From: a virus
Virus record (IMG/VR): IMGVR_UViG_3300039100_000006
Location: 1-40,649 of that record
DNA length: 40,649 nucleotides
Direction: 5' to 3' (one strand)
The notes below the pieces were generated by a model. The model had not been told where the DNA came from, ran no database searches, and was given only the letters and a program-made list of their open reading frames with translations. Shown one piece after another: positions 7,695 to 36,022 of the stretch. Made by a program: the position numbers and the translations under genes. Positions within the stretch are counted from its first letter, which is position 1; each line of letters begins with the position of its first letter.

Positions 7695-8954
7695 TTAGAA
7701 GGCACCAGCACGATCACGTGCTATTGCTCCTGTTCCAGCACTGGCGCTAAATGCGGCAGTTTCTAGTTGTGTCAGTTTCTTACGCTGCCTTGCAGCATCT
7801 ACTGATCCAGCAAGTCCAAAGACTTCCTGCTCTGCTGTTGTCTGCGTGTATGGATCCTGCTTGTAAATATCTGCAAGTACACCACCACGTGGTGCAACCT
7901 CTGCAACTGTCTGGAATCCTTGCTGTGCTTGGGCCTTAGTAATACCTGCAGCAGCAAGTTCTTCTGCACGAGTCATACCAGCCTTGAGTCCTGCTTGTGT
8001 AGCAGCACCACCGATTTCAGCAGCAGTTACCTTACGCTTAATGTTTTCAATAGCGTTGGCTGGATCTAGTACATAAGCCAAGATATCTCCATTAGAGATA
8101 CCAGGATAAAATTCTTTAAGTGCCTTAGCAACTTCTGGGTTAGAGTTAACCACACGATTGTTTGCTGTCTGGATGCGGTCTTCTAGTTCTACTGCAGATA
8201 CATCTCCTGCTAAGAACTTCTCGAATCCAGTCTGGATACCCATTTCACCCTTTGTGTAATAGGACTCTGGTAAACCATAGCGGCGCATTACGTCTTGGTA
8301 TTGATCTTCAGTACCAATGTATTCAGCCTCAGATAACGCACGTAATCCCTTAGCCACACGCTGTGCATTAGCAGCAAAGCGCTTCTTGTAGGCATCTGTC
8401 TCACGTAGACGAAGCGTAAACTCCGATGGAGATACACCTTCTTCAATCAAAGATTTTAATGGCGTTACTAGCGCTTCTAATCCGTACTGCTTAAACTCTG
8501 AATACAGTAAATCAAAAGCGGATCTGCGGTCCTCTTTTTTTTGATCTGAGTATGCATTTGCAGCAAGTTGATCTGCATATGTTAATCCACTTACATTGGA
8601 AGAGCCAGATCCTGATTGAAAATTTGACATTGCAAGATCATCTGCAGCCGCAATTGCTTCTGGTGAATCTGGGTTAGCATCTATGTACCCTTGAACTTTT
8701 GCCGCTCTTGCTGCGTTTAACGCTTTACCTCTATCTAATCCAGATTTACCAGCAAGTGCTGCTCTATATTCGGCATCATTAAGATCAAAGTTTGGATTAT
8801 ATGAGTCGCCATACATTGAAGTAACTGGGTTAAGACCACCACGTGATTCAAGATATTCCTCAGCAGTCATCCCTTGAGATTTAGCATTAGCAGCAATAAC
8901 TTCTTTACTACTCTTAGAAATAGCATTGAGGTCCGTTGAAAATTGGTCAGCCAT
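7695..8954 (-). CDS. Putative internal virion / ejection protein
   Basis: The product is 419 aa, largely alpha-helical, Ala/Glu/Lys-rich, with no signal peptide or membrane segment. A motif-like stretch PLKSLIEEGVSPSEFTLRLR followed by Y-K-K-R-F resembles repeated segments in large phage internal proteins. It is the last of four large consecutive genes between portal and scaffold, in the same operon with minimal spacing. I do not recognise a catalytic domain. Role as a DNA-ejection or internal core protein is inferred from location and composition. Confidence 0.55.
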   Translation of the reverse strand: MADQFSTDLNAISKSSKEVIAANAKSQGMTAEEYLESRGGLNPVTSMYGDSYNPNFDLNDAEYRAALAGKSGLDRGKALNAARAAKVQGYIDANPDSPEAIAAADDLAMSNFQSGSGSSNVSGLTYADQLAANAYSDQKKEDRRSAFDLLYSEFKQYGLEALVTPLKSLIEEGVSPSEFTLRLRETDAYKKRFAANAQRVAKGLRALSEAEYIGTEDQYQDVMRRYGLPESYYTKGEMGIQTGFEKFLAGDVSAVELEDRIQTANNRVVNSNPEVAKALKEFYPGISNGDILAYVLDPANAIENIKRKVTAAEIGGAATQAGLKAGMTRAEELAAAGITKAQAQQGFQTVAEVAPRGGVLADIYKQDPYTQTTAEQEVFGLAGSVDAARQRKKLTQLETAAFSASAGTGAIARDRAGAF

Positions 8955-8958
8955 TTAT

Positions 8959-10467
8959 TTACCCCTGGAATCCGAAGTTACGAAGAACTCCTAGCACTGC
9001 ATCAGATGATTCTTCTCGTGCATTGTTTGTGTACTGCCAGCGTGGATCCTTACGGAGTGTGCGCTGGAAATCATAGATAGACATTTCTTTCTCAGGACCA
9101 ATAGCCATACGTAATGTCTTATCGTCTAGGCTAATTGAATCAGGTGCTACTTCTAGCACAGATGCCATAACCTTTTTGTATGGGTCATAGATATCTTTGA
9201 GGTCTAGTCCTTGGTCTAATAGGTTTGCTACCTTGTCTGGTAGACCTAACTTAGCAGCACCACGGATAGTGTTCTTGAATGTCTCAATAGACTCACCCTT
9301 GGCAAGACGCTGTAACCAGTCATTGATACTAGAACCAAATGATGTGTCTAGGTCAAATCCATTAGCACGTGCTGTAGCACGAAGAGTTGTTAGATCTCCA
9401 CCTACCGCTCCACCTAGTTGCATACCAGGCTTGTAAGATACAAGTGCAGCCAATTCACGGTTAATGATATTTGGATCTTTGTCATTGGCTGAGTCATACA
9501 TACGCTTGACAAATGCGTCAAGGCGCTCAGGTGACATAGTTCCAGTAAGACCCGAAGCAGTCGCTTCGATGTAAGCCTTAGCAGATTCAAGTCCACGAGC
9601 ATAAGCAGATGTGGTCTTTAGTTGTCCAATCTTAGAAAGGATTACATCTTTCTTGTCTTGGGTATCAGCCATCTCTAATTGTCTTGTGTACTTGTCAAGA
9701 GTCTCTGTATACTCTCTGCGTTGTGCATCACGTGCACGATATGTTCCTGCATTGCGGATAGCCCATTCAGATGCATTAAGACGACGAAGAAACTCTGTCT
9801 CTTCCATATCGTCTTTAGCAGTTGCTGGATCACCAACAGCATCAATAAGAATCTTTTTTAGTTCTGGATCATACAAGAAAATAGAATCTACGTTGCCATA
9901 CTTAGATCTAGCAAGATCATAAATAGCATTGATATCTTCATTGCCAGTAGCAGTTAAAGTGCCAGTCTTGTTTACCTTAGCCATAGATGCTTCATCGGCT
10001 TGACGGAATGTTCCTACATTAAACCCAGCAGGAATAACAGCATCTGGTTTTGGCTTTGCTGATGGCTTGGGCTTTGGCTTGGCAATTACTTCTTCTGTTA
10101 CTACCTCAGCCTTTGGCTTAACTTTAGGTTCAGGTTTTTTTGTAACCTTTGGCTCTGGCTTAGGCAAGCCCTTTTTAGTAGCATCTGCAATGATCTTCTC
10201 TTGTGCAGAGATAGAAGGTGCAACACCAGGTGTGCCAGGATCTAAAGCATTAAGACGATCAAGTTCTCTTTGAGCCTTTTGAACTACAGATAAGTTCTTT
10301 TCTAAACTGGACTCTTCTTTAAGTTGCTTGAGTTTTTTATTAAGTTCTTGAGCCTTAGACTTTAAGGAAGCCTTCTTAGCAATATCGTCTTCTTTTGCTG
10401 CTTGATTAAGAAGCCCAGCAATCTCTGACTGTAACTTATCTTGGGTCTGCTTTAATGTCTCTGCCAT
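8959..10467 (-). CDS. Putative internal virion protein with Lys/Pro linker
   Basis: The product is 502 aa. Residues 1-75 are coiled-coil-like (Q-D-K-L-Q-S-E-I-A-G-L-L-N-Q-A-A-K). Residues of about 100-145 are a low-complexity K-P-E-P-K/K-P-K-P-K linker, and the remaining 350 residues are helical. The ATG overlaps the upstream stop. Such modular helical proteins with flexible linkers fit structural internal proteins that must be threaded through the portal. No enzyme motif is visible; the assignment is contextual. Confidence 0.55.
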   Translation of the reverse strand: MAETLKQTQDKLQSEIAGLLNQAAKEDDIAKKASLKSKAQELNKKLKQLKEESSLEKNLSVVQKAQRELDRLNALDPGTPGVAPSISAQEKIIADATKKGLPKPEPKVTKKPEPKVKPKAEVVTEEVIAKPKPKPSAKPKPDAVIPAGFNVGTFRQADEASMAKVNKTGTLTATGNEDINAIYDLARSKYGNVDSIFLYDPELKKILIDAVGDPATAKDDMEETEFLRRLNASEWAIRNAGTYRARDAQRREYTETLDKYTRQLEMADTQDKKDVILSKIGQLKTTSAYARGLESAKAYIEATASGLTGTMSPERLDAFVKRMYDSANDKDPNIINRELAALVSYKPGMQLGGAVGGDLTTLRATARANGFDLDTSFGSSINDWLQRLAKGESIETFKNTIRGAAKLGLPDKVANLLDQGLDLKDIYDPYKKVMASVLEVAPDSISLDDKTLRMAIGPEKEMSIYDFQRTLRKDPRWQYTNNAREESSDAVLGVLRNFGFQG

Positions 10468-22351: not shown

Positions 22352-22380
22352 TTGACATACGGTAGACAACCGCATATTGT
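22352..22380 (+). promoter_or_regulatory. Early rightward promoter
   Basis: Consensus -35 TTGACA (22352-22357), 17-base spacer, -10 TATTGT (22375-22380), then a leader of about 45 bases to the first early ATG with AGAGGAGA before it. It is the only near-consensus sigma-70-type promoter that I see in the control region. Confidence 0.65.
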
Positions 22381-22606: not shown

Positions 22607-22773
22607 TGATTTACAACCCAGACGAGCAGGCAGGGCATCTTGTCCTAGATCTAATTGACCATATGCAGAATGAGCAAGAGTTCGACAATGTAGTGAGCCT
22701 GCTAGTGGAATGGGGCTTAATCGGGGCAGGGCTAGGGGCTATCGCCCCCGAGATGTGGAAGGAGGGGAAGTAA
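22606..22773 (+). CDS. Early small protein 2
   Basis: The product is 55 aa starting at ATG 22606 within a TAATG junction with the upstream gene. Start MIYNPDEQAGHLVLDLIDHM; the C-terminal half is hydrophobic and Gly-rich (W-G-L-I-G-A-G-L-G-A-I-A-P), possibly one short membrane helix. Unknown function. Confidence 0.65.
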   Translation: MIYNPDEQAGHLVLDLIDHMQNEQEFDNVVSLLVEWGLIGAGLGAIAPEMWKEGK

Positions 22774-22883
22774 TGATTACGATTCAAACTAAGGCGAGAT
22801 GCGTAGAATGTGCGAGAGTCTTCAACCTAATGGACGAGGACGACGCGGGAGAATGGTATTACGGGCACGATTGCGAGGTCTAG
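22773..22883 (+). CDS. Early small zinc-binding-like protein 3
   Basis: The product is 36 aa, MITIQTKARCVECARVFNLM to Y-Y-G-H-D-C-E-V. C-x2-C near the N-terminus plus H-x-C near the end form a possible treble-clef-like zinc site in a minimal protein. It begins in a TAATG junction. Its TAG stop (22881-22883) lies inside the first strand of the hammerhead ribozyme. Confidence 0.65.
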   Translation: MITIQTKARCVECARVFNLMDEDDAGEWYYGHDCEV

Positions 22884-22934
22884 ACCGAAACGGGCGCAAG
22901 CCCGTCCACCCGTAAGGCGGGTGCTGATGAGGTC
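22883..22934 (+). ncRNA. Type II hammerhead ribozyme
   Basis: All core nucleotides are present in circularly permuted (type II) order. Stem II 3' strand GACC (22883-22886), GAA A (22887-22890), stem III CGGGC (22891-22895) with GNRA loop GCAA and GCCCG (22900-22904), U16.1 (22905), C17 (22906), stem I CACCCG (22907-22912), loop TAAGG, CGGGTG (22918-22923), core CTGATGA (22924-22930), stem II 5' strand GGTC (22931-22934). Predicted cleavage is between 22906 and 22907. It occupies the gap between early genes 3 and 4, on their transcript, and overlaps the stop codon of gene 3. Confidence 0.93.
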
Positions 22935-22962
22935 ATCAGATAGGCTCAGGAAGGGGCTTAGA

Positions 22963-23157
22963 ATGGCAACGACACAAGATAGTTATGGGCTAGTAGTAGG
23001 AGGATACCGCGTGACAATTATGAATTGGAACGGCAACGGGCGCGAGATGTTCTTTCAAAATAAGTTCGACGCTAACGAATACCTCGCAAGGTACAAGGCT
23101 TTCGGCTATGAAGGCAACGTTGAGACAATTCACTTACACGTTAAGGGGGCAAACTAA
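22963..23157 (+). CDS. Early small protein 4
   Basis: The product is 64 aa from ATG 22963 (MATTQDSYGLVVGGYRVTIM), preceded by AGGAAGGGG just beyond the ribozyme. An upstream in-frame ATG at 22921 lies inside the ribozyme and is rejected. Mixed alpha/beta; the pattern K-F-D-A-N-E-Y-L-A-R-Y-K suggests a helix. Unknown function. Confidence 0.65.
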   Translation: MATTQDSYGLVVGGYRVTIMNWNGNGREMFFQNKFDANEYLARYKAFGYEGNVETIHLHVKGAN

Positions 23158-24238: not shown

Positions 24239-24341
24239 TGCGGTAGTTTTGTGGGGTTTGCTGTTAGTATATGGAATTCCAATAGTCACCGTGGCTTATT
24301 GGTTGGAGAAGATGATAACCAAAGGAGAAGATGATGAGTGA
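24231..24341 (+). CDS. Early tiny membrane protein 10
   Basis: The product is 36 aa, start M-N-D-A-V-V-L-W-G-L-L-L-V-Y-G-I-P-I, one predicted transmembrane helix then a charged tail (L-E-K-M-I-T-K-G-E-D-D-E). Overlaps the previous gene by 8 bases. Could be an accessory membrane or holin-like peptide; unproven. Confidence 0.5.
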   Translation: MNDAVVLWGLLLVYGIPIVTVAYWLEKMITKGEDDE

Positions 24342-25137: not shown

Positions 25138-25226
25138 CATACTGGATAGGGATAGCGGTCATAATGCTGATAGCCTATGTTCTAATTGTATGGGAGGACA
25201 AGACAAATAATGGAGGCAGAGAATAA
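25134..25226 (+). CDS. Early tiny membrane protein 15
   Basis: The product is 30 aa, start MTYWIGIAVIMLIAYVLIVW then a polar tail. It is a single transmembrane helix and little else. ATGA overlap with the upstream gene. Its place just before a secreted cell-wall enzyme hints at a membrane or lysis accessory role. Confidence 0.5.
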   Translation: MTYWIGIAVIMLIAYVLIVWEDKTNNGGRE

Positions 25227-33620: not shown

Positions 33621-33815
33621 TCATTTCTCTGCAATCAATCGGTACAGGTCATCTATACGTTCTTCTAATCTTGTGACTGAATCTTTAAGTGATGAACCAC
33701 CGTTAGGCTTGAGTTCATTGAGGTAGTGCTTAACCATCCAGCGTACTGCTGCACCGAAGCCACCTACTATTGTGCATACTGCAACAGCAACTGTTGCGTA
33801 GTCTTGTGCCTGCAT
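33621..33815 (-). CDS. Small membrane protein with coiled coil (holin-like)
   Basis: The product is 64 aa: one N-terminal transmembrane helix (Y-A-T-V-A-V-A-V-C-T-I-V-G-G-F-G-A-A-V) and a C-terminal coiled coil (V-T-R-L-E-E-R-I-D-D-L-Y-R-L-I). Such proteins next to endolysins are holins or holin partners. Confidence 0.65.
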   Translation of the reverse strand: MQAQDYATVAVAVCTIVGGFGAAVRWMVKHYLNELKPNGGSSLKDSVTRLEERIDDLYRLIAEK

Positions 33816-36022
33816 TAGACCGTCCTAATGGTTACTAGGAGCGTTCCACCGTATCCGCTGAAGCGCTTATCTGAAGGGGTTGTATTTCTGAAATCAAGTT
33901 CTTCGATAAGTCCGATGTAGGACTCACCAGTTCTAAAGTCTTCAACGCGGATGGTGTCACCCACATTTTCAATCTGTTCTAGTTGACTCATACGGTCATA
34001 GGCAGAACCTTCAAAGCCAATCTCAACCCCGAAGTGATCTGATTCGTGGTCAAAGCAAGACAGTGGATACTGGATTAAACGCTGACGTGGGATAGCAGGC
34101 AGTGCCTTGATCTGGTATCCAGTAAATAGTGGACCCTTAGAACTATCGGTAGTTGAACGAGTTAGTGTGAACTGGAAGCCAAGGTACTCTTGTGATGCTT
34201 GAGGATAGTTGATGTTAACCTCTGGAACAGTTGCCTCTTGTGCAAAGGTACCAATGCGATAGTAGTTATCGGCATAGTCAATAGAGTCAATGTTTAATCC
34301 ACCGTTAGTGGTATCTACACGAGCCTGCATCAACTTAAAGATCTTGAGTTCTAGTGTGTTATAGCGTACATAACCTGTACGCAAGAAGCCTTCTGCCAAT
34401 AAGGTAGATGCTGATTCAATGTAGATAGTTCCATCTGATCCATTACCAGCATTGCAAAATGCTAAGCGGTTAGTATCTCCTAGGAAAGCACAGGCTGTGG
34501 TGTAACTAAGCAATGTATCTGCTGGGTTGTACAAGTCATAGGAATAAGGGAACTGAAGGTTACCTAATGGTTGACCCATATCTACACGAGTCACACCGAC
34601 CTGACCATCAACGCCAGAGGCAGCCCAAATATATCTATCACGGAAACCAAAGTCATAGACTGGTTGTTGCGATTCAAAGATTAAAGCACCGTAGGTAATG
34701 GAGCCATCGAGTTGACTTGCATCTGCCATACGCATACCTTGGCTAGTACCAATAGCCATATTGCCAAGGTAGTAGGCAATCTTAAATACAATCTCACCTA
34801 CTGGTAGTTCTGCTGCAGTGATAGCACTGGTCAGGGTAGGCATAGCACCAGCAGTAGACAAGGTAAACTTGTAGATATTGGACTGGATACCTGAGTAGCC
34901 TGAGATGTAGATAGCAGCACCACTAGATGTAATGCTAGTAAAGATATGATCTGGGTCATTGTGTGAATAGACCGCTGCTGGTAGTGATGTTGCGCTACTA
35001 GCAAACTCATAGACCTTATCGTTGACACACATCACAATACGTTCTTTGGTGTACTCCATAACAGCGTTAGTTACAGTGATGCTGTTTTCAGTAATCATTA
35101 GAGTAGGCGATACAGAACTATCATCCGATAGTAACTTTTTGTATACTCTTAGTCTTGGAGTTCCAGCATTAAGTACGTTAGTAACCCAGTAGGCATAGAC
35201 ACCATCATCACAGATAGCGTGTACTGCGTAGTCAGTACCTGATATGTAATCAATGAAGTGGATAACATCTGCCACGCCTGTACCTACTGGAGATACAGCA
35301 GTAGATGCTACGTCGGCAGCAACCTTGGCATATGTAAAAGTGGTAGTTGTAGGTACACCTGTGATGCGGTACTCACCATTGAAGGTAGCATCCACACCAG
35401 TAATAGTAATCTGCATACCCACAGATAGGCCGTGTGCTGCAGTTGTGGTCAGCGTTGCTACATTTGTAGTAAGCGCCTTGTTGTTGATAGATACAGTGAT
35501 TGCTGGAAAGATCTTGTCTACGTCATACTCATCGGCAAGAAGCACACCGTTGTAAAGGTTGCTGTTCTTTGTCCACTGAATAGAACGCATCATCTGCCAC
35601 GGACGACCATCAGTTCTGATGCCACCTGTGGTAATGTGCTGGCTATCTGATTGCTTGAGTAGTGTTGCCTGTCCTTTGGTCCAGACATCTAAACCTTTAG
35701 ACTCTGTGTACTGGAAGCGAAGCGACTCATCCTGGATAGGTTCAAAGAACTTGATGCCTTGTCCATAGTGGAAAGAGGATTGGCTACGTAGCCACCAACC
35801 AGTCAGTGTCTGCTCACCAGGCTCACGGCTCTGGTCAATCTGTTGCTTACGATACTGCGCTGTTACGCGACGATATGGTGAATCGTCAGAGTTCAACAGA
35901 AAGAACGGTAAGCCTGCGATTGCTACATCGTAGGCTTCACCTGTTGCTGAGTAGTTTGTAGCACCTGCTGGATTGGAAAGGGTATATACCAGACCCTCGG
36001 TAATGTCGTCGCCGTATGGCAC
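33815..36022 (-). CDS. Large tail protein, propeller-like, with Ig-like insert
   Basis: The product is 735 aa, GTG start at 36022 after AAGGGG. Residues of about 188-262 are an Ig-like module (A-L-T-T-N-V-A-T-L-T-T-T-A-A-H-G-L) also found in the major capsid protein. From about 265 to 620, repeated beta blades with Y-W-V, Y-I-S-G-Y and I-W-A-A-S-G-V-D-G suggest a beta-propeller, as in tubular-tail or nozzle proteins of short-tailed phages. The C-terminal 100 residues include F-R-T-G-E-S-Y-I-G-L. Likely the tail nozzle or hub. Confidence 0.65.
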   Translation of the reverse strand: MPYGDDITEGLVYTLSNPAGATNYSATGEAYDVAIAGLPFFLLNSDDSPYRRVTAQYRKQQIDQSREPGEQTLTGWWLRSQSSFHYGQGIKFFEPIQDESLRFQYTESKGLDVWTKGQATLLKQSDSQHITTGGIRTDGRPWQMMRSIQWTKNSNLYNGVLLADEYDVDKIFPAITVSINNKALTTNVATLTTTAAHGLSVGMQITITGVDATFNGEYRITGVPTTTTFTYAKVAADVASTAVSPVGTGVADVIHFIDYISGTDYAVHAICDDGVYAYWVTNVLNAGTPRLRVYKKLLSDDSSVSPTLMITENSITVTNAVMEYTKERIVMCVNDKVYEFASSATSLPAAVYSHNDPDHIFTSITSSGAAIYISGYSGIQSNIYKFTLSTAGAMPTLTSAITAAELPVGEIVFKIAYYLGNMAIGTSQGMRMADASQLDGSITYGALIFESQQPVYDFGFRDRYIWAASGVDGQVGVTRVDMGQPLGNLQFPYSYDLYNPADTLLSYTTACAFLGDTNRLAFCNAGNGSDGTIYIESASTLLAEGFLRTGYVRYNTLELKIFKLMQARVDTTNGGLNIDSIDYADNYYRIGTFAQEATVPEVNINYPQASQEYLGFQFTLTRSTTDSSKGPLFTGYQIKALPAIPRQRLIQYPLSCFDHESDHFGVEIGFEGSAYDRMSQLEQIENVGDTIRVEDFRTGESYIGLIEELDFRNTTPSDKRFSGYGGTLLVTIRTV

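Follow-up and report, generated by a model that had tools for sequence, protein, structure and literature searches.

Type II hammerhead ribozymes have been described in prophages, where tandem copies flank genes; the function proposed for them is to divide phage transcripts into gene-length mRNAs (Perreault 2011, PMC3088659). Operon processing has already been suggested for phage hammerheads in general, with the precedent that tandem phage and prophage copies cleave in vitro and that one array does so in E. coli as well (PMC3088659). What these ribozymes do for the phage has been a standing question since 2011. Self-cleavage within mRNA is also a feature of glmS and other bacterial mRNA-cleaving ribozymes, which leave a 5'-hydroxyl on the downstream piece.

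Here, we analysed a viral DNA record of 40,649 nucleotides (IMG/VR IMGVR_UViG_3300039100_000006; "the window" denotes this whole stretch), which carries a complete hammerhead at 22883-22934 with a full core and three perfect stems (Table 1). By structure this ribozyme is a type II hammerhead, a known class, of which intercistronic phage examples are also known. Like glmS and the other mRNA-cleaving ribozymes, it is predicted to cleave within an mRNA and to generate a 5'-hydroxyl downstream piece; unlike them, it has no ligand domain, adopts another fold and is intergenic rather than placed in a 5' leader. It shares with the hammerheads of RF02276 and of PMC3088659 the core, the three stems, the open stem II and a position between phage operon genes. 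It differs from them in its 5-nt stem I loop without a pseudoknot between loop I and the 3' tail, in its 4-bp stem II, in a tail that pairs with the catalytic core strand, in scoring below the Rfam cut-off and in being a single copy in its genome.

Table 1. Coordinates of the features discussed; positions without a contig prefix refer to the window.
Feature	Position	Strand	Basis or remark
Promoter-like TTGACA-17-TATTGT	22352-22380	+	10/12 consensus bases, upstream of small-gene operon; weak evidence
Gene 3 (36 aa)	22773-22883	+	Stop TAG at 22881-22883 shares G22883 with stem II
Stem II, 5' strand (GACC)	22883-22886	+	Pairs with 22931-22934; paired in 10/10 family members
Core GAAA (G12 A13 A14 A15.1)	22887-22890	+	Coordinate check; RF02276 alignment
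Stem III, 5 bp, GCAA loop	22891-22904 (22891-22895/22900-22904)	+	Closes on A22890-U22905
Cleavage site UC (U16.1 C17)	22905-22906	+	Predicted cut 22906/22907, placed by hammerhead rule
Stem I, 6 bp, loop UAAGG	22907-22923 (22907-22912/22918-22923)	+	All six positions paired in 10/10
Core CUGAUGA (C3-A9), N7 = U22928	22924-22930	+	Coordinate check; RF02276 alignment
Anti-core hairpin CUGAUG-AGGU-CAUCAG	22924-22939 (22924-22929/22934-22939)	+	N7/tail covariation in 63 hammerheads
Stem II, 3' strand (GGUC), 4 bp	22931-22934	+	Structure-registered family alignment
Third hairpin of 3' product	22941-22960	+	Predicted fold; Shine-Dalgarno AGGAAG in loop
Gene 4 (64 aa), first gene 3' of ribozyme	22963-23157	+	No family or close relative found
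Element B	L026:6710-6799	-	Same slot as window hammerhead
Element B	L012:6538-6625	-	Same slot as window hammerhead
Element B	L011:1889-1978	-	Same slot as window hammerhead
Long hairpin RNA	L055:2334-2436, L058:2613-2705, L080:2566-2662	reverse-complement coordinates	Common to all three

A preliminary description of this DNA, made from its letters, had called the motif a type II hammerhead, and its positions for the core and the cleavage site were all exact, as were its stem lengths, stem III having the A22890-U22905 pair in addition. All invariant core positions of the class (C3 U4 G5 A6 N7 G8 A9, G12 A13 A14, A15.1-U16.1, H17) are present, and the topology is that of permutation II, in which loops close stems I and III while stem II is open. 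A strict structural search of both strands of the window returned this one motif in total, and none of 1000 dinucleotide-preserving shuffles contained one as good (two did at much weaker stem thresholds). Further hammerheads flanking single genes were not found in the 40.6-kb record.

The best Rfam family, by a wide margin, was Hammerhead_II (RF02276), matched over its full length with 32.1 bits and an E-value of 6e-5 (2e-6 when only the record itself was searched). The covariance check therefore agreed on family and extent and fell short on score, since the gathering score of RF02276 is 37 bits, which is a database inclusion rule rather than a structural feature; at the gathering level, no Rfam match was obtained anywhere in the window. 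A twister-sister candidate (RF02681) was dropped, as it reached 15.4 bits against 34 (E 1.1). The likely reason for the low hammerhead score is that RF02276 apparently models hammerheads in which the 3' tail is paired to the loop of stem I, a pairing absent from the window hammerhead with its 5-nt loop. Such a pseudoknot is common in the published type II consensus and not obligatory. Among the matches listed in our collection (see below), it was present in 93 of 103 long-loop hammerheads versus 48 in shuffles, whereas the short-loop class had it in 52 of 316 versus 53 in shuffles, so that no tertiary contact for fast cleavage was found in the short-loop class. A blastn search of the hammerhead region against phage records gave no match; an ssRNA phage shares 20 nt with it inside the RdRp gene, but has no hammerhead core there, and this match was put down to chance.

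To place the motif in an evolutionary context, we gathered 80 relatives in IMG/VR through the terminase gene. In nine of them, a type II hammerhead occupies the equivalent site, on the divergent strand and 1.1-1.8 kb from the terminase, and further hammerhead-bearing relatives were reached through gene 13. In a structure-based registration of the window and the nine terminase relatives, none of the 15 stem pairs was unpaired in any of the ten sequences, and all three stems showed two-sided changes: a single position of stem I had as many as five pair types, the second pair of stem II had a CG/UA change, and stem III had GC, CG and AU alternatives without a broken pair. Every catalytic core position was kept in all family members while the stems diverged. 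Judged from this alignment, the stem changes are compensatory evolution of a working structure, and together with core, stems and synteny they support the original identification, which had named alignment of related phages as a check. The nearest terminase relatives (97%) are without the hammerhead, and the ribozyme is therefore dispensable.

The hammerhead lies in the sense orientation in a 79-nt gap between genes 3 and 4 (22884-22962) of a small-gene operon divergent from the terminase. This gap had been presented as the only sizeable one in the gene chain; the same strand also has gaps at about 24239-24330 and 25138-25209. The description of the transcript as early is in keeping with its divergence from the terminase and with the promoter-like match upstream, but matches of that quality are no commoner in the window than in shuffles. 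Likewise, the assignment to an actinophage type received partial support: the terminase is 43% identical to those of Streptomyces phages, and Streptomyces phage Abafar has genes with similar annotations (sigma-K, Toprim primase, DnaB and PDDEXK). For gene 4, a GTG at 23011 is an alternative start and has a stronger Shine-Dalgarno sequence. Searches matched gene 4 to no family or close relative, and phage relatives sought through it gave no confirmed case; a 48% relative is present in L012. Elsewhere in the window, a 735-aa protein (33815-36022, minus strand) matches phrog_11667, a phage family without known function, at 8.6e-166.

We then asked how such ribozymes are placed in general. Pattern scans with unconstrained flanks, together with the terminase loci, yielded at least 426 distinct type II hammerheads in viral contigs; because the scans were pattern-seeded and the figures come from the matches listed, frequencies in this collection are not population estimates. 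Context was evaluated for the 298 short-loop hammerheads with enough flank among the matches listed, against 1580 random same-strand places. An ORF stop fell between -40 and +12 of stem II in 277 of the 298 (93%), compared with 386 of the 1580 random places (24%), and it overlapped or abutted stem II in 158 (53%) compared with 40 (2.5%). A Shine-Dalgarno sequence and start codon followed within 75 nt in 226 (76%), compared with 264 random places (17%). The window hammerhead, intercistronic, 3' of a stop and 5' of a Shine-Dalgarno sequence, conforms to this pattern, and its stop overlap is thus the ordinary layout of the listed short-loop class. The overlap itself is real, although the gene 3 stop codon, said to lie in the stem II strand, shares only G22883 with it and is not inside the stem.

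The analysis also revealed a second fold, which, like the exchange with another RNA described below, is absent from the preliminary description. The tail following stem II, CRUCAG, can pair with the core strand CUGAYG, forming an anti-core hairpin that cannot coexist with the catalytic fold. N7, a core position thought free to vary, takes part in this pairing. A C?UCAG tail was present in 63 of the 316 short-loop hammerheads among the matches listed, and in these N7 and its tail partner were C-G in 33 cases, U-A in 28, U-G in two and C-A in none. Watson-Crick pairs were thus found in 61 of these 63 listed hammerheads, whereas 10,000 trials with shuffled N7 averaged 31.7 such pairs and never exceeded 47. 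The 63 fall into 47 flank-sequence clusters, a grouping that reduces and does not remove shared ancestry, and none contradicts the rule; one contig, L377, holds both versions. Moreover, an AG 3' of stem II was found in 107 of 131 listed hammerheads in which it completes UCAG (stem ending in UC) versus 44 of 185 elsewhere (p 3e-25, nominal, since the sequences are related). UCAG is kept in all ten family members, and a member found later, L607, has the weaker CAUUGG. No C?UCAG tail was detected in 22 similar hammerheads of bacterial genomes, and the hairpin is therefore not universal. From this covariation, we take it that a subset of phage hammerheads has a genuine anti-core helix maintained by selection. 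The hairpin was not mentioned in the literature searched, in which full-text coverage of type II hammerheads is narrow, and its novelty is accordingly provisional.

In fold calculations, the anti-core hairpin had a pairing probability of about 1.0 in the predicted 3' product. It was also part of the lowest-energy fold of the precursor, at -31.5 to -32.8 kcal/mol versus -25.1 kcal/mol for the catalytic fold with tertiary contacts left out, and cleavage could therefore be slow. In relatives with element B (see below), the third hairpin of the product has the identical sequence.

From the motif, its synteny, the compensatory evolution of the stems and of the anti-core hairpin, and the placement of stop and Shine-Dalgarno sequence, we infer cleavage, a lock role and an effect on gene expression: very probably, intercistronic self-cleavage divides the transcript between genes 1-3 and the genes from 4 onward, with the anti-core hairpin locking the 3' product. 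The transcript of the small-gene operon would be cut between C22906 and C22907, 3' of the gene 3 stop and 5' of the gene 4 Shine-Dalgarno sequence, a position at which neither product would be a broken message. The upstream piece would retain its stop codon and end in the stem III hairpin with a 2',3'-cyclic phosphate, and the downstream piece would begin with the stem I hairpin, bearing a 5'-hydroxyl; with hairpins at both new ends, each half could be degraded and translated on its own. Cleavage would be followed by refolding of the core strand CUGAUG with the tail CAUCAG, which would release the upstream piece, block religation and add a further, stacked hairpin to the new 5' end. For the hairpin considered separately, we lean, if only slightly, towards such a product lock. 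The maintenance of a helix against the catalytic fold by compensatory change implies that refolding is part of the function.

Alternatively, and with distinctly lower probability, the hairpin could act as a brake: the nascent RNA would fold into the inactive form first, and ribosomes terminating at the overlapping stop codon, or the lack of them, would gate the catalytic fold, turning the ribozyme into a translation-controlled switch of the downstream genes. The greater stability of the anti-core fold in the precursor, the compensatory preservation of the helix and the sharing or abutment of stop and stem II in more than half of the listed class are all consistent with this idea. However, the tail is transcribed later than stem II and the core, and bacterial-genome hammerheads of similar shape do without the hairpin, which indicates that it is not needed for control generally. 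The stop overlap, from which coupling of cleavage to translation had been proposed before, is explained equally well by compact packing, although it is real and typical of the class; ribosome coupling is possible, but the data do not call for it.

In most other relatives, the slot that the hammerhead occupies in the window contains a conserved RNA of about 90 nt, which we call element B. It folds into a three-way junction, its 7-8 bp stem enclosing two hairpins, one of them T-loop-like, and it also has a Shine-Dalgarno hairpin. RNAalifold analysis of 22 sequences gave 16 pairs, eight of them with two-sided changes, and a covariance model scored above 70 bits at 26 terminase loci and recovered 45 gene-13 loci (the contigs being partly shared), with no match in the window. 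The L012 copy had no match in Rfam, and tRNA or tmRNA identity was rejected because ARAGORN was negative in 24 loci. The exchange can be seen between the window and L026, whose left flanks share gene 3 (103/111 nt; 96/111 in L035) and whose right flanks share the 29-nt leader TAGGCTCAGGAAGGGGCTTAGAATGGCAA; between these flanks, the window has the hammerhead and L026 has element B. On a tree of neighbouring genes, the distribution of the two RNAs needs at least four changes. No third element was found in the slots with neither RNA (L605, L634, L638, L641 and L650).

Such an exchange implies that the role of the unnamed RNA should resemble that of the hammerhead. Self-cleaving ribozymes of different classes have been noted at similar places in phages (Weinberg group, PMC10085705), which makes element B a candidate ribozyme by analogy, while its tRNA-like look makes cutting by a host RNase another option; it may thus be a new self-cleaving ribozyme or a host-RNase cut site. 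In L312, element B is present as three diverged neighbouring copies (8551-8642, 8786-8878 and 9146-9236, plus strand), a cluster that resembles hammerhead arrays, and the same contig holds a type II hammerhead at 7774-7823. Separately, three relatives share a long hairpin RNA, TTAGTTAGTGGCGTACTATCTT...AAGGTAGTATCTTACTAA, in a gap.

That relatives have a very different structured RNA in this position could also mean that the slot needs structure only, the hammerhead being kept for another role (as a site for a protein or antiterminator, or as a fold that stabilises mRNA) with cleavage incidental or absent. We consider this improbable, since the core is fully kept in every family member despite stem divergence and a purely structural function would not preserve GAAA, CUGANGA and UH. 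Excision or circularisation of a small RNA, retrozyme or viroid-like, as reported for hammerheads elsewhere (PMC4918200), is very hard to reconcile with a single hammerhead between coding genes in 40.6 kb. A chance or dead remnant, which patchy presence among close relatives might suggest, is just as implausible in view of the shuffles and of the compensatory changes without a broken pair in ten sequences.

Two aspects look new: a short-loop, pseudoknot-free subclass with an anti-core hairpin, and a slot in which this ribozyme is exchangeable with element B. We tentatively extend this, with somewhat less than even confidence, to a large phage type II subclass that would be bistable, with N7 tied to the CRUCAG tail, the hairpin serving as a lock or as a ribosome-read switch, and element B acting as a functional equivalent.

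Type II hammerheads were also found, unannotated, between or next to genes of the cultured Streptomyces phages R4, Wentworth, phiRKBJ001, Dryad and Spernnie, and some of them pass the Rfam cut-off. R4 (L661, NC_019414.1 47437-50456) has four within 3 kb, all intercistronic, over the cut-off and unannotated. The tandem copies of R4 and Spernnie resemble the window hammerhead in being intercistronic, on the gene strand and 5' of the next Shine-Dalgarno sequence; unlike it, they belong to the long-loop pseudoknot class, and the CRUCAG tail was seen in none of the cultured Streptomyces phage hammerheads examined. R4, grown on S. coelicolor, is a possible laboratory system for transcript cutting.

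Among bacterial-genome contigs, some of them from Gastranaerophilales MAGs, six (L547, L549, L562, L568, L501 and L516) carry type II hammerheads with a near-identical stem III (CGGTCGGCTAAC..GCTGACCG), in some cases in two copies, each 5' of a start codon. Finally, the viral contigs L103, L117, L085, L106 and L094 hold four to nine type II hammerheads each, and some of these array members directly precede a Shine-Dalgarno sequence and start codon.
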